The notes beneath the pieces were generated by a model. That model had not been told where the DNA came from. It searched no databases and saw nothing but the letters and a program-made list of their open reading frames with translations. A DNA stretch of 64,000 nucleotides from Niallia circulans (GTDB lineage: Bacteria > Bacillota > Bacilli > Bacillales > Cytobacillaceae). The translations under genes and the position numbers were made by a program. The stretch covers positions 62,001 through 126,000 of the forward strand of contig NZ_CP026031.1 in the NCBI RefSeq assembly GCF_003726095.1, read 5' to 3'. This document shows positions 23,102-27,687 of the stretch, one piece after another (position 1 is the stretch's first letter; each line of letters begins with the position of its first letter).

Positions 23102-23977
23102 TTAGCCGTTAACAATCGTACCGCCGTTGACATGGATAACCTGTCCAGTTACATAGGTAGAATCATTGCTAGCTAAATATACATACGCTGGGGCAAGTTC
23201 ACAAGGTTGGCCAGCACGTTTAAAAGGAGTATTTCCTCCAAAAGAAGCAACTTGCTCACTATCAAAAGTAGATGGGATAAGTGGCGTCCAAATTGGCCCT
23301 GGTGCTACCCCATTGACTCGAATTCCTTGTTCCGCAAGAGAGCCTGATAAGGAACGAGTGAAAGCCGTAATAGCTCCTTTTGTTGCGGAATAATCAATTA
23401 ATGTCTCATTACCTTTATACGCAGTAATAGACGTTGTATTAATAATCGCATCTCCTTTTTGTAAGTGGGGCAGAGTGGCTTTTGTTAAGTGAAACATTGA
23501 GAAAATATTGGTGCGGAAAGTTTTTTCTAATTGTTCTGACGTGATATCTAGAATGCTTGATTGTGGATGTTGCTCTGCAGCATTATTTACAAGAATATTA
23601 ACCTTGCCAAATTCTGAAACGGTCTTTTTTACAACCTCTTTACAGAAGCTTTCATCACCAATATCCCCAGCAAGCAGTAAGCATTTTACTCCTTCAGCTT
23701 CGACTAATTCTTTCGTCTTTTGGGCATCGTCATGCTCATCTAAGTATACGATAGTGATATCAGCACCTTCTTTTGCATAATAGATAGCAACAGAACGGCC
23801 AATCCCACTATCGCCTCCAGTGATGATGGCAGTTTTTCCTTTTAATTTTTCAGAGCCTCTATAAGAGGGATCGACATCTTTAGGTATAGGATTCATCTCT
23901 GTCTGAATGCCTGGCTGCTGATCTTGATGCTGTGGTGGAAATGTTTGTTGTAATTGTTCCTTATTACTATTAGTCAA
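23102..23977 (-). CDS. short-chain dehydrogenase of the YdaD/YhdF general-stress group
   Basis: NAD(P)-dependent oxidoreductase of 291 residues. The N-terminal extension rich in Gln and Pro (about 1-45, FPPQHQDQQPG, then MNPIP) is typical of this group. The Rossmann motif is TGGDSGIGRSVA, NNAAEQHP replaces NNAG, and the catalytic YSATK is present. The frame opens at GTG 23986, which overlaps the ribosome site GAAGGAG; TTG at 23977 has correct spacing. A SigB-type promoter lies 40-63 bp upstream, matching the stress role of B. subtilis relatives. Its substrate is unknown. Confidence 0.85.
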   Translation of the reverse strand: MTNSNKEQLQQTFPPQHQDQQPGIQTEMNPIPKDVDPSYRGSEKLKGKTAIITGGDSGIGRSVAIYYAKEGADITIVYLDEHDDAQKTKELVEAEGVKCLLLAGDIGDESFCKEVVKKTVSEFGKVNILVNNAAEQHPQSSILDITSEQLEKTFRTNIFSMFHLTKATLPHLQKGDAIINTTSITAYKGNETLIDYSATKGAITAFTRSLSGSLAEQGIRVNGVAPGPIWTPLIPSTFDSEQVASFGGNTPFKRAGQPCELAPAYVYLASNDSTYVTGQVIHVNGGTIVNG

Positions 23978-24016
23978 TTCAATCACTCCTTCTAATTCTG
24001 TACATGTTTACTTATT

Positions 24017-24040: not shown

Positions 24041-24115
24041 ATGGTAAAAATAGGGTTGAGTGATATGGAGTTGTGGAAATGAAGGGGTAAGCATGATGAA
24101 AGTTGTTTGATTAAA

Positions 24116-24517
24116 GTGGTGTTCCTTTGTTTAATGAACACCATAAATATCTTGTTTTGAAAGAAAAGTGGTGTTCATCCGCCTGATGAACGCTATAAAA
24201 ACCTTTTTTTGAAAGAAAAGGGGCGTTCATCCGCCTGATGAACGCCATAAATACCTTGTTTTGAAAGAAAAGGGGCGTTCATCCGCCTGATGAACGCCAT
24301 AAAAACCTTTTTTTGAAAGAAAAGTGGTGTTCATCCGCCTGATGAACGCTATAAATATCTTGTTTTGAAAGAAAAGTGGTGTTCATCCGCCTGATGAACG
24401 CCATAAAAACCTTTTTTTGAAAGAAAAGTGGTGTTCATACACATGATGAGCACCATAAATATCTTGTGCTGAAAGAAAAGTGGCGTTCACCAGCTTGGTG
24501 TCCGCTGTTATTTTTCA
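24116..24517. repeat. tandem array: seven 52-bp units plus a partial unit, each with an inverted repeat
   Basis: Units start at 24116, 24168, 24220, 24272, 24324, 24376 and 24428, each exactly 52 bp; a diverged partial unit begins at 24480. Each has GGYGTTCAT, a short spacer (mostly CCGCCTG), ATGAACGCY, then ATAAA, an AT-rich stretch and GAAAGAAAA. Arm changes in the outer positions are mostly compensated (C-G, U-A or G-U pairs), so a hairpin is conserved. Units alternate between tails with CTTGTTTT and CCTTTTTTT. On the minus strand each hairpin is followed by a CTTTTCTTTC tract. The array fills the gap downstream of yajQ; 52 is not a multiple of three and it is not coding. The rest of the gap, 23978-24115, holds only the SigB promoter. 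Confidence 0.92.
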
Positions 24518-25012
24518 TTAACGATAATTGACAAACTGTACATCAATCGTAATTTTTGATTCTTCTTTCACAGCAGCAATAATTTTTTGTAAATCATCAC
24601 GGCTTTTAGCAGTAACCCGAATTTGATCGTCCTGTTGTTGAGTTTTCACTTTTAAGCCACTGTTTTTAATTAATGAATTAATAATTTTGGCATTATCTCG
24701 ATCAATTCCCTGCACTAATTTCGCTCTTTGACGAACTGTACCGCCGGAAGCACCTTCGATTTTGCCATAATCCAAGTTTTTAATAGGAATACCACGTTTA
24801 AACATTTTGCTAATAAGAACATCTTTAAGCTGTTCTAATTTATATTCATCATCTGAAACAAGAACCAATTCTTCTTTATCCAGCGTCACATTACTCTTGC
24901 TACCTTTAAAATCATACCGATTTTGAATTTCTTTCATTGCAAGCTGGACAGCATTCGTAACCTCTGAAAAATCTACCTTGGATACAATGTCAAATGAACT
25001 TTCTTTTGCCAT
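24518..25012 (-). CDS. yajQ: YajQ family nucleotide-binding protein (YitK)
   Basis: 164-residue cytoplasmic UPF0234/YajQ protein; family members bind RNA or cyclic-di-GMP. The start [32 protein letters not shown] is the family hallmark, and [23 protein letters not shown] lies in the middle. The length matches B. subtilis YitK. ATG at 25012 follows AGGAGG. It is divergent from cvfB/yitL, as in B. subtilis, and its 3' end abuts the 52-bp repeat array, whose hairpins are the only candidate terminators. Function in Gram-positives is not settled. Confidence 0.92.
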
Positions 25013-25211: not shown

Positions 25212-26093
25212 ATGTCGTTAAGAGATTATATGGGACGCGTAGAAATATTAACAGTTGCTAGGATTGCATCTTTTGGGTATTTTTTGACAATTGAAGAGGA
25301 AGACGAAGATGTGCTTTTACACTTCAGTGAAACTGATCAAAAATTTGAAGAGGGGGATGAAGTCCGCGTTTTTATATATAGTGATTCACAGGGAAGAGCT
25401 TGCTCAAGTACCTTTATTCCGTCCATTGCAGTAGGTAAATACGATTGGGTGAAAGTAACAGACCGCAAAGAAGGAATTGGCTGTTTCTTTGATATAGGGC
25501 TAAAAAAGGACATGCTATTAGGGGAAGATGATTTACCAGTACATGAAGAGGTATGGCCAGAAGTGGGCGATATGCTTTATATAACATTAAAGGTAAATAA
25601 GAATAACTATTTATATGTAAAACCAGCAACGGATCCTATTATTGAAGAAATGGCAGCAAAAGCAACAAGAGAAGATTTTAATAAAAATATTCATGGGTAT
25701 ATTTATCGAACAGCAAAAGTAGGAAGCTGGATTTATACAGCAGAAGGCTTTAAAGGATTTATTCATGAATCTGAGCGAGGCAAGGAACCAAGATTAGGGG
25801 AAAAAGTAAATGGGCGTATCATTGATGTTAAGCTAGATGGAACTGTAAATGTTTCATTATTGCCGAGAAAAGAAGAAGCGCTTGATAAAGATTCCCAACT
25901 AATCTTAGACTATTTAATAACTCGTAAAGGCGCAATGCCTTATGGGGATAAGAGTATGCCTGAGGACATTAAGGAACGTTTTAATTTAAGTAAAGGTTCG
26001 TTCAAACGAGCGCTTGGGAGACTAATGAAAGAAAATAAAGTGTACCAAGAAGAAGGCTGGACGTATTTAAAGGAAGATAATCAAAATAATTAA
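25212..26093 (+). CDS. cvfB: CvfB family S1-domain RNA-binding protein (YitL)
   Basis: 293-residue protein of the conserved virulence factor B group. Three S1-like beta-barrels occupy about 1-65, 70-140 and 150-215 (GRVEILTVARIASFGYFL, VGSWIYTAEGFKGFIHESERG, NGRIIDVKLDGTVNVSL), and a C-terminal winged helix covers about 225-290 (AMPYGDKSMPEDIKERFNLSKGSFKRALGRLMKE). S. aureus CvfB binds RNA and affects virulence gene expression. AAGGAGG precedes the ATG. It is divergent from yajQ and ends in a terminator before the second repeat array. Confidence 0.9.
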   Translation: MSLRDYMGRVEILTVARIASFGYFLTIEEEDEDVLLHFSETDQKFEEGDEVRVFIYSDSQGRACSSTFIPSIAVGKYDWVKVTDRKEGIGCFFDIGLKKDMLLGEDDLPVHEEVWPEVGDMLYITLKVNKNNYLYVKPATDPIIEEMAAKATREDFNKNIHGYIYRTAKVGSWIYTAEGFKGFIHESERGKEPRLGEKVNGRIIDVKLDGTVNVSLLPRKEEALDKDSQLILDYLITRKGAMPYGDKSMPEDIKERFNLSKGSFKRALGRLMKENKVYQEEGWTYLKEDNQNN

Positions 26094-26180: not shown

Positions 26181-26476
26181 CTCGCCTCAGAGCCCGTTTC
26201 GGCAGTAGAGAACGATAAAAGGGAAGAGAGAAGCAATCTCAGAGCCCGTTTTGGGAAAGAGAAAGCTAAAAGGGAACAGAGAACTCGCCTCAGAGCCCGT
26301 TTTGGGAAAAGAGAAAGCTAAAAGGGAACAGAGAACTCGCCTCAGAGCCCGTTTTGGGAAAAGAGAAAGCTAAAAGGGAACAGAGAACTCGCCTCAGAGC
26401 CTGTTTGGTAAAAGAGAAAGCTAAAACGGGAACAGAGAAACCACCTCAGAGCCCTTTTCCGCAAAACGGAATAGAG
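26181..26476. repeat. second tandem array: five 52-bp units plus a partial unit
   Basis: Units start at 26181, 26233 (51 bp), 26284, 26336 and 26388, with a diverged partial unit from 26440. The units at 26284 and 26336 are identical. Consensus begins CTCGCCTCAGAGCCCG, continues TTTTGGGAAAAGAG and AAAGCTAAAAGGG, and ends AACAGAGAA, so the plus strand is purine-rich. Small CCC/GGG hairpins are possible, but pairing is far weaker than in the array at 24116. Only the period is the same. An open frame at 26354-26587 passes through it but shifts frame from unit to unit, so it is not regarded as a gene. The array and a terminator fill the gap 26152-26598. Confidence 0.9.
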
Positions 26477-26820: not shown

Positions 26821-27687
26821 TTATTCAGGTAGCTTATTTAAGAAGAAAATAGCGATTGTTCCAGCACCAGTGTGTGAGCCTACAGATGCGCCGATAGAGG
26901 AAATGAATACATCTTTTGGTTGGAATTTTTCCATAATCATTTCTTTTACTTCCACAGCTGTTGCTTCATCATCTGCGTGACTGATCGCGAACACTTGTTG
27001 ATCCAGCTTATCTCCTCGTTCTGCTATTAGGTCAATCATTCTGCGCAGGAGTTTCTTTTTCCCGCGGATTTTTTCAAGAGGAACGAGTTTCCCGTCTTCT
27101 ACATGTAATAAAGGCTTTATATTTAGTAATCCGCCAAGGAATGCAGAGGCCTTCGAAACACGTCCGCCTTTTGCTAAATATTCTAGATCTTCGACAGTAA
27201 ATAAGTGCTCCATATGCTCGCATAAGAATTGGAGTCGTGGTATAATTTCACTTACGTCTTTACCTTGATCGCGGAGTTTCACTGCTTCTTGAACCACTAA
27301 ACCAGCACCTAATGATGCACATTTGCTATCAATGATGGTTAAAGCAAAGTCGGGATATTCCTCCTTTACTTGCTCTGAAATCATTACTGCTGTTTGGTAT
27401 GTTCCAGATAATTGCGAAGAAAAAGCAATATAAATACCTTTTTCATTATTTTGAGCTAATGTTGTAAAAACATCTTTAAATAAAGCTGGCGAAACTTGTG
27501 ATGTTTTTGGAACTTGTCCACTGCGTATAGCATTATAAACAGTAGCTGGTTCAATCGTTTTTAAATCCTCGTATTCTTTACCGTCTAAGTTAACCTTTAG
27601 CGGTAATAGTGTAACCTCGTTCTTCTCATAATAGGATAGAGGTAAATCACTCGCACTATCTGCTAGGATTTTAAAAGTCATATTCAT
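26821..27687 (-). CDS. yitS: DegV family fatty-acid-binding protein (YitS)
   Basis: 288-residue DegV/FakB-type protein that binds a fatty acid and presents it to the FakA kinase. Family marks: KILADSASDLPLSYYEKNEVTLLPLKV, KTSQVSPALFKDVF (the T-S-Q-V/P-S loop), FSSQLSGTYQTAVM, DSKCASLGAGLVV, and the C-terminal HADDEATA, SIGASVGSHTGAGTIA in the lipid-headgroup site. The ATG has only a weak ribosome site; a second ATG two codons on is equally possible. In B. subtilis yitS also precedes yitT. The ligand specificity is unknown. Confidence 0.88.
   Translation of the reverse strand: MNMTFKILADSASDLPLSYYEKNEVTLLPLKVNLDGKEYEDLKTIEPATVYNAIRSGQVPKTSQVSPALFKDVFTTLAQNNEKGIYIAFSSQLSGTYQTAVMISEQVKEEYPDFALTIIDSKCASLGAGLVVQEAVKLRDQGKDVSEIIPRLQFLCEHMEHLFTVEDLEYLAKGGRVSKASAFLGGLLNIKPLLHVEDGKLVPLEKIRGKKKLLRRMIDLIAERGDKLDQQVFAISHADDEATAVEVKEMIMEKFQPKDVFISSIGASVGSHTGAGTIAIFFLNKLPE

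Follow-up and report, generated by a model that had tools for sequence, protein, structure and literature searches.

A 52-bp tandem array downstream of yajQ in Niallia circulans looks like one of a widespread class of fixed-pitch, replication-oriented repeats

The locus and its two arrays

The window analysed here is a stretch of 64,000 nucleotides of the Niallia circulans chromosome, corresponding to positions 62001-126000 of the 5.18-Mb single contig of its genome (G000). A yajQ-type gene and a short-chain dehydrogenase gene flank a tandem array of 52-bp units, which we call family A, and a second array of a different unit type, family B, lies further on between a CvfB-like gene and a DegV-family gene (Table 1). 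Families C, D and E denote further unit types found elsewhere.

Table 1. Positions of the arrays, their parts and the neighbouring genes in the window
Feature	Position	Strand	Remarks
Short-chain dehydrogenase gene	23102..23986	-	other flank of the family-A array
Seven full 52-bp family-A units	24116..24479	+ (leading strand)	A-run precedes left arm
Dyad of unit 1, 10-7-10	24117..24143	.	27 bp; arms 10 bp, spacer 7 bp
Further dyads (27 bp each)	starts 24169, 24221, 24273, 24325, 24377, 24429; diverged one 24481
Example of a 25-bp linker between dyads	24144..24168	+	ends in AAAAG run
Diverged partial eighth unit	24480..24517	+	yajQ side; same edge unit in strain NBRC 13626 (G012)
yajQ-type gene, PF04461 (DUF520)	24518..25012	-	lagging-strand gene; 3' end abuts array
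CvfB-like gene	25212..26093	+	upstream of family-B array
Family-B array, GGGAACAGAG N7 CTCAGAGCCC	26181..26458	+	period 52, 5.4 copies; single unit at the G012 site
DegV-family gene	26821..27687	-	convergent with CvfB-like gene across family-B array

TRF reports the family-A array at 24113-24489 with a period of 52, 7.2 copies and 0% indels, and alignment of the units over 24116-24517 bears out the seven exact 52-bp units and the partial eighth given in a preliminary description of this DNA. The inverted repeat in each unit, which had been assigned 9-bp arms, actually consists of 10 + 7 + 10 bp (27 bp, from 24117 + 52n). The heptamer CCGCCTG, said to lie mostly at its centre, is found there in five of the seven full units, and the arm letters reported for the individual units are correct except that unit 6 has a T.G pair too. 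The array has a uniform centre, diverged edges and higher-order repeats of 104 bp.

The family-B unit is unrelated in sequence to family A and has an identical 52-bp period. Its dyad is weak in the window (p 0.09) and reaches p<=0.05 in 2 of 10 family-B arrays; the family is present in 4 of 41 genomes, one of them from another genus. Both window arrays can be compared with those of N. circulans NBRC 13626 (G012, locus L084), which around yajQ has a mean identity of 95% to the window's genome over 21.7 kb of summed BLAST alignment (overlapping array alignments counted). The yajQ array has five units in that strain and eight in G000, with the same diverged edge units, and the family-B site holds one unit and about five units, respectively. 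Since unit number varies between such close strains, the arrays are usable as typing loci; they may also disturb genome assemblies.

Distribution, pitch and dyad architecture

When the array unit was sought in other genomes, BLAST returned matches in 5 of 41, all of the window's genus. With 16 candidates per genome scored, the family-A array has matches in at least 13 places in G000 and at least 20 in another species of Niallia (G001). The core pattern TGGNNTTCAT N7 ATGAANNCCA is identical to its reverse complement; G000 contains 187 occurrences at up to two mismatches (0 for the reversed control), and every one of the first 20 loci fetched, which include two overlapping pairs, contains a period-52 tandem array. 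The stretches of G000 examined amount to 1.26 Mb, partly selected for holding matches, and contain 18 period-52 arrays, six of which lie in a near-contiguous 704 kb. For 15 of the 18 there is no overlapping open reading frame of at least 80 aa, and the other three overlap mechanically called frames of 84, 111 and 302 aa; mechanical frames of 81-302 aa overlap 6 of 23 G000 arrays of all periods and 3 of 18 of period 52/104. A coding repeat was considered and rejected, the period of 52 not being a multiple of three and the overlapping mechanical frames not being taken as genes.

Beyond the genus we used two samples. The first consists of the surroundings of yajQ in 80 named Bacillus-group records (1.55 Mb), 19 of which hold arrays of period 51-53 with unrelated unit sequences. 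The array-holding records belong to Niallia, Robertmurraya, Mesobacillus, Cytobacillus, Fredinandcohnia, Peribacillus glennii and several Bacillus, together with one record titled Chryseobacterium, a title that looks wrong. At a score of at least 120 the period is 52 in 22 arrays, 51 in two and 53 in one. The second sample covers 400 kb of a second genus (g3) in 20 stretches (L271-L290), each selected for a family-C match; here the period is 52 in 28 arrays, 53 in three and 51 in one, and these 32 come out of 37 arrays with period 24-110 and score at least 120. By eye, 12 of the 32 are not family C but of other 52-bp unit types, for example with TATGTGCCC, TGTCTA/TAGACA and TCAATCGGC. Another 20 stretches from other genera of the family, four of them only 1.3-2.7 kb long, yielded one 52-bp array (L296, genome G021). 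Two unit types are present in G000, three in G021 and, on visual inspection of 140 kb, at least four in G147. In the sampled stretches there is roughly one array for every 30-120 kb of chromosome.

The pitch is nearly invariant also when measured between neighbouring family-A cores: in the G000 stretches 113 of 119 such neighbours lie exactly 52 bp apart, and in those of G001 112 of 125 do. No neighbour spacing near 42 or 62 was seen in these stretches, which argues against helical phase alone as the reason for the pitch, since helical phase would predict such spacings. That one unit length and one dyad geometry recur across unrelated sequences in several genera calls for a common cause, whether a protein assembly or an enzyme that amplifies the units.

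In the named sample, arrays that begin within 500 bp downstream of yajQ are confined to 2 of 80 loci, so any role at the yajQ locus is dispensable. A 51-bp array with an unrelated unit lies 71 bp after yajQ in Cytobacillus purgationiresistens (L102, 10560-10905). A further locus (L147, 6430-6507) carries GAACACATGGTGTTC within three perfect units of 26 bp, which is half of 52.

The dyad architecture was assessed in 94 arrays with periods of 51-53 or 104, by comparing the best 10-bp dyad with a 7-bp spacer to shuffles of the same unit. The 10-7-10 dyad has p<=0.05 in 72 of the 94 arrays and p<=0.01 in 53, leaving 22 in which it is not significant; kinship within families means that the arrays do not count as independent. 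Odd spacers exceed the shuffles, with a peak at 7 (8.01 against 5.27 matches), and even spacers stay within about 0.2 of the shuffles except in a few single arrays; the 51-bp array of L102 has an even, 6-bp spacer. The arms themselves are unrelated between families (TGGYGTTCAT, GGGAACAGAG, TGTCCGATAG, TGTCCGTCAT, TGTCAACCAA, GGTAAAAGCA and others). On the purine-rich strand, families A, B, C and E have an A-run, mostly AAAAG, immediately before the left arm; family D and arrays L052, L090 and L117 lack it.

A constant pitch with conserved half-sites and freer linkers is seen in families A and C. Within family-A arrays the arms vary about half as much as the linkers. The difference per site, in 31 arrays of G000 and G001 with units picked by the core pattern, is 0.094/0.103 in the two arms and 0.22-0.27 in the loop and linkers; such picking makes the arms look more conserved than they are, and in 239 unfiltered, re-anchored units from 29 arrays the values are 0.122/0.142 and 0.24-0.27. 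The A-run, which lies outside the search pattern, differs by 0.138 in core-picked and 0.177 in unfiltered units. Plain 52-bp cuts of 20 indel-free family-A arrays, partly out of register, give 0.12-0.13 against 0.14-0.18. Between family-A arrays the difference is 0.57-0.63 in the loop and linkers and 0.095/0.147 in the arms, the latter figure being helped by the core-based picking of units. The linkers and loops of family A are rich in purines on the leading strand (70-78% and 81%, respectively) compared to 54% in the surrounding DNA.

Arm pairing, folding and termination

The preliminary description held that changes in the arms are compensated and that the fold, not just the sequence, has been kept. 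We examined pairing by redealing the right-arm letters among the units of each array and comparing the pair count with that observed. The window array has 67 Watson-Crick and G-T pairs against a shuffle mean of 66.4, a count reached in 461 of 1000 shuffles, so the letters of its arms do not bear out compensation. The same holds for homologous arrays, where covariation shows no clear excess over background in families A and C. For 281 core-picked units from 34 family-A arrays the Watson-Crick count is 2181 against 2179.3 in shuffles (216 of 500 reach it), and for 110 units from 20 family-C arrays, which belong to another genus, it is 965 against 964.0 (185 of 500). Cutting 22 indel-free family-A arrays into plain 52-bp steps does give an excess (1222 against 1197.2, reached by 0 of 500 shuffles). 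We attribute this excess to units out of register, and it is gone after re-anchoring: 239 unfiltered units from 29 arrays, with four further arrays of out-of-phase consensus set aside, give 1813 against 1808.8 (118 of 500). A narrow count, of cells changed on both sides yet still paired, shows a weak excess of covariation (14 against 9.8 expected, reached in 18 of 300 shuffles), six of these cells coming from one array. With arm pairing at the level of within-array shuffles in both families, an RNA fold kept by covariation is not supported.

Individual arm positions point the same way. Position 4 of family A, the site of the GGTG/CACC versus GGCG/CGCC difference, shows no positive association (T-A 53, C-G 43, T.G 131, C.A 33). 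Position 5 is anti-paired, G standing opposite A in 171 units and T opposite C in 37, against 55 G-C and 9 T-A; the Fisher p of this anti-pairing is 1e-12 by unit and 0.048 by array. Arm pairing equal to shuffles, together with the preference for a mismatch at position 5, indicates that each half-site is kept as sequence. Each half-site has a set of permitted letters of its own, which is more in keeping with recognition of DNA half-sites than with an RNA helix. On the purine strand G.T pairs outnumber A.C (133 against 54), which would suit a hairpin on that strand too, and the unit may form a hairpin with a kept mismatch. Odd spacers are not something a hairpin loop would need, and shared ancestry within families contributes to their prevalence as well.

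An effect on transcription has to be weighed here, namely that the units serve as serial intrinsic terminators or as a structured RNA and affect transcription directed against the fork, many units being, on the pyrimidine strand, a hairpin followed by CTTTTC or a similar run. At yajQ some units may act as terminators, since each full unit on the gene's strand reads as a hairpin closely followed by CTTTTC. In five array-less loci of the Niallia group (L085-L088 and L120) yajQ is directly followed, as judged by eye, by a canonical terminator, and in G000 and N. circulans the array stands in place of that terminator. Folding of 11 single-unit stretches gives -8.3 to -17.9 kcal/mol, with z below -1.7 in 10 of the 11 and down to -3.5 on the yajQ strand, and 2 of 8 units are terminator-like on that strand; the weak both-changed excess given above is a further point in favour. 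However, terminator-like sites across the region are not above shuffles (3 against 2.3), 28 of 50 gene ends that face an array already have their own canonical-type terminator between gene and array (11 of 20 lagging, 17 of 30 leading), and no T-run follows the hairpin in family D, L052, L090 or L117. Rfam families at gathering score are absent from the whole window. The lack of clear covariation, the anti-paired position 5 and the odd spacers also speak against a transcript-level role, and a terminator requires neither a 52-bp pitch nor repetition. We consider this minor rival improbable, the least credible of the explanations discussed. Among the three candidates named in the preliminary description (terminators, a structured RNA and sites for a dimeric protein), it is the dimer sites that fit best, and the argument from a kept fold fails.

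Orientation, turnover and origin

Leading strands were assigned from GC skew in G000 and, in G001, from the halves of the contig taken as replichores. In G000, 17 of 18 arrays have their purine-rich strand as leading strand and the remaining one is neutral at 0.49; the polarity of the window array is weak (0.53). The corresponding count in G001 is 18 of 19 by replichore and 16 of 19 by local 6-kb skew; because at least eight arrays are orthologous between G000 and G001, the counts of the two genomes are not independent. Local skew gives 30 of 32 arrays in g3 and, over 20 kb, 21 of 25 in the named loci. Exceptions are the arrays at 3241178 in G001 and 3817873 in G147. Five arrays lie between two lagging-strand genes, and all five follow the replichore rather than transcription, one of them being weak (0.53) and two being orthologues. 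The link with the direction of replication, independent of neighbouring gene direction in these few discordant cases, provides a handle on how direction is read or recorded.

The recognition sequences of SpoIIIE and FtsK, SRS and KOPS, are scattered octamers whose orientation follows the replichores. The orientation of the 52-bp arrays does so too, but these are arrays and not scattered octamers. Clustered SpoIIIE (SRS) or AddAB Chi sites were rejected as an explanation: 16,043 bp of array sequence contain no GAGAAGGG, and all 18 occurrences of GAGCAGGG fall within one array, at 3452256. AGCGG is about twofold enriched in arrays.

With genes called mechanically in G000 and G001, 37 arrays are distributed over 15 convergent gaps, 15 co-directional leading, 5 co-directional lagging and 2 divergent, and the other 553 gaps of at least 100 bp in G000 over 72, 294, 52 and 135, respectively. 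Convergent gaps are thus enriched (15/37 against 72/553, p 6.6e-5) and divergent gaps avoided (2/37 against 135/553, p 0.005). Eight orthologous arrays of G000 and G001, with surroundings about 80-93% identical, differ in unit number. The pairs L173/L236, L183/L247, L175/L242 and L176/L232, also tested as orthologues, proved not to be orthologous and were left uncounted. Differences in unit number at orthologous places imply that the arrays grow and shrink in place and outlive species divergence.

Such turnover is also what minisatellites display. Those of the MIRU/VNTR type are tandem repeats dispersed over the chromosome with strain-variable unit numbers, and the 52-bp arrays are like them in both respects. 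The arrays could accordingly be ordinary minisatellites, with a polarity that reflects survival only: tandem duplications would form everywhere, and it would be mostly those with a purine-rich lagging-strand template that are stable enough to be observed. Diverged edges, a uniform centre and 104-bp repeats are what slippage or unequal exchange yields, the stability of repeats is known to depend on orientation, as established for trinucleotide repeats, and the surrounding leading strand is already purine-biased (0.54). This explanation leaves the conservation of the arms, the odd-spacer dyad and the single pitch unaccounted for; unlike MIRU/VNTR repeats, 52-bp arrays of unrelated sequence share unit length, often a dyad, and replication polarity, and the only other common class that looks non-coding has a step of about 20.5 bp. 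We regard it as unlikely, though somewhat less so than a string of terminators.

The main rival is a selfish repeat made by a transposase. REP/BIME-type repeats would be seeded and multiplied by an enzyme acting on single-stranded DNA (RAYT, another HUH/Y1 enzyme, or a different one) from imperfect hairpins in the lagging-strand template, with little use to the host. Single-strand transposition, as in IS200/IS605, gives a replication-linked orientation, so the orientation of the arrays is expected under this explanation. Also in agreement with it are the A-run preceding a hairpin that is imperfect and retains a mismatch, and the avoidance of divergent gaps. A RAYT/REPtron system was considered because matches to PF01797 track family A inside the genus, being present in 5 of 5 family-A genomes and lacking in 5 of 8 other members. 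Genes termed RAYT-like here are defined by PF01797 score and length only. One of them, in genome G052, has GGGGGACGGTTC repeats beside it that are oriented too (nine places on the plus strand at 507-774 kb, four on the minus strand at 4.69-4.78 Mb), and 52-bp arrays are found about 6 kb away from RAYT-like genes in two genomes from outside the genus (G021 and G047). Against this, family-A or family-B units are absent from 16-kb stretches round 11 of the listed RAYT-like genes in six genomes of the genus, with isolated four-mismatch matches only; G014 has 20 family-C hits and 0 PF01797 matches; and arrays near the RAYT-like genes of G048 and G052 have periods of 31-50, not 52. A Y1/RAYT transposase as a requirement was therefore rejected, on the grounds of G014 and of the units missing beside the 11 genes. 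The selfish explanation is also opposed by the persistence of the eight arrays at orthologous places and by the absence of matches to the window array in plasmid and phage collections. Plasmid- or phage-borne spread was rejected on the latter result; two single pattern hits in viral contigs (L269 and L270) lie in contigs without a 52-bp array by TRF, the L269 hit within an open reading frame. We think the selfish explanation rather doubtful, less so than the minisatellite one.

According to PMC3733652, REPs are 20-40 bp long, carry a GTAG or CGTC tag and have partners mostly 20-100 bp apart, arranged head-head, tail-tail or head-tail. The 52-bp arrays are like REPs with RAYT (PMC3733652) and like BIMEs in being dispersed imperfect palindromes, many per genome, sometimes tandem and mostly downstream of coding regions. 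They are unlike those REPs in running head-to-tail at a fixed pitch, with no RAYT beside family-A or family-B units, and no GTAG or CGTC tag was seen beside the arms in aligned units of families A-E inspected by eye.

From its sequence the window array looks like one of a class widespread among Bacillus relatives, and more like a row of protein-binding sites than a folded RNA. Taking together the fixed pitch, the dyad of most arrays, the lower variation of arms than of linkers, the lack of clear covariation, the orientation, the preference for convergent gaps and the turnover, we assign a probability of about one half to the reading that these are fixed-pitch, replication-oriented arrays of candidate dyad DNA-binding sites, gaining and losing units in place. 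The units run head-to-tail at 52 bp. Most carry a single imperfect dyad (10-bp half-sites, 7-bp spacer), often led by an A-run, and the sequence of the purine-biased linker is free. A putative dimer would bind each dyad as double-stranded DNA and read its half-sites separately, and adjacent dimers would touch across the linker, the pitch corresponding to about five helical turns; such contacts would hold the pitch while the letters of the linker drift. Tandem duplication, slippage or unequal exchange would let arrays grow and keep them uniform. The assembled array could then act in a direction-dependent manner on something travelling with the fork, be it the replisome, a DNA translocase or opposing transcription. 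Several unit types occur per genome, more than a single protein could read, so the pitch would be either common to several proteins or set by whatever makes the arrays.

A bolder version is offered tentatively. By extrapolation, dozens to more than 100 nucleoprotein arrays per genome might mark direction on the chromosome for the fork, a DNA translocase or transcription running head-on, the specificity of the half-sites having switched repeatedly, both within genomes and from one genome to another, while the 52-bp, odd-spaced 10-7-10 geometry stayed fixed.

In form, the arrays are also reminiscent of the sopC centromere of plasmid F, a tandem array of 43-bp units in which SopB binds the inverted repeat that each unit contains; both have fixed-length tandem units with one dyad each. 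sopC is one plasmid locus with one sequence, whereas the 52-bp arrays are many per chromosome, have several unit types and implicate no partition gene. Their regular repeats and fixed-length intervals recall CRISPR as well, but CRISPR spacers are unique and the linkers here are shared within an array, and the window has no Rfam match. No description of the 52-bp class was found in the literature searched, one search being dominated by clinical papers, nor in the available portions of PMC3733652, PMC2267715 and PMC4666352, the subject of the last being intrastrand triplex.

Other repeat classes were seen alongside the 52-bp arrays. Four arrays in G000 have a step of about 20.5 bp (period 41-42 = 2 x 20.5), at 239179-239518, 249389-250122, 3443080-3443685 and 3480792-3481065 (L072, L073, L178 and L200), and the first three share by eye the motif TTTGGCTGA. 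Those at 239 and 249 kb have opposite orientations within one replichore, so this class does not look replication-oriented. Arrays with a 20-20.7-bp step occur in other genera (L093 11551-12046, L107 11561-12052, L112 18360-19048 and L118 3761-4404), with the motifs CTATTTGCC/CTATTGTCCG, CGCAAG and GTTGCC and periods of 40, 61, 82, 101, 103 and 124. Palindrome arrays of the GGGGACGGTTC type, with periods of 38-50, lie near RAYT-like genes in other genera (L225 7820-7999 and 13002-13239; L223 7729-8044 and 11445-11571); in G052 their orientation differs on either side of the contig start, and these palindromes may be the cognate REPs of Firmicute RAYTs. Finally, longer repeats of 125-153 bp are found in L097 (1210-1509), L102 (18180-18432) and G000 (152585-152940, L068, a 153-bp repeat), and those of L097 and L102 have CTCAGGGGCGACAAGC and CTCGAGCCCCTAG parts in common.
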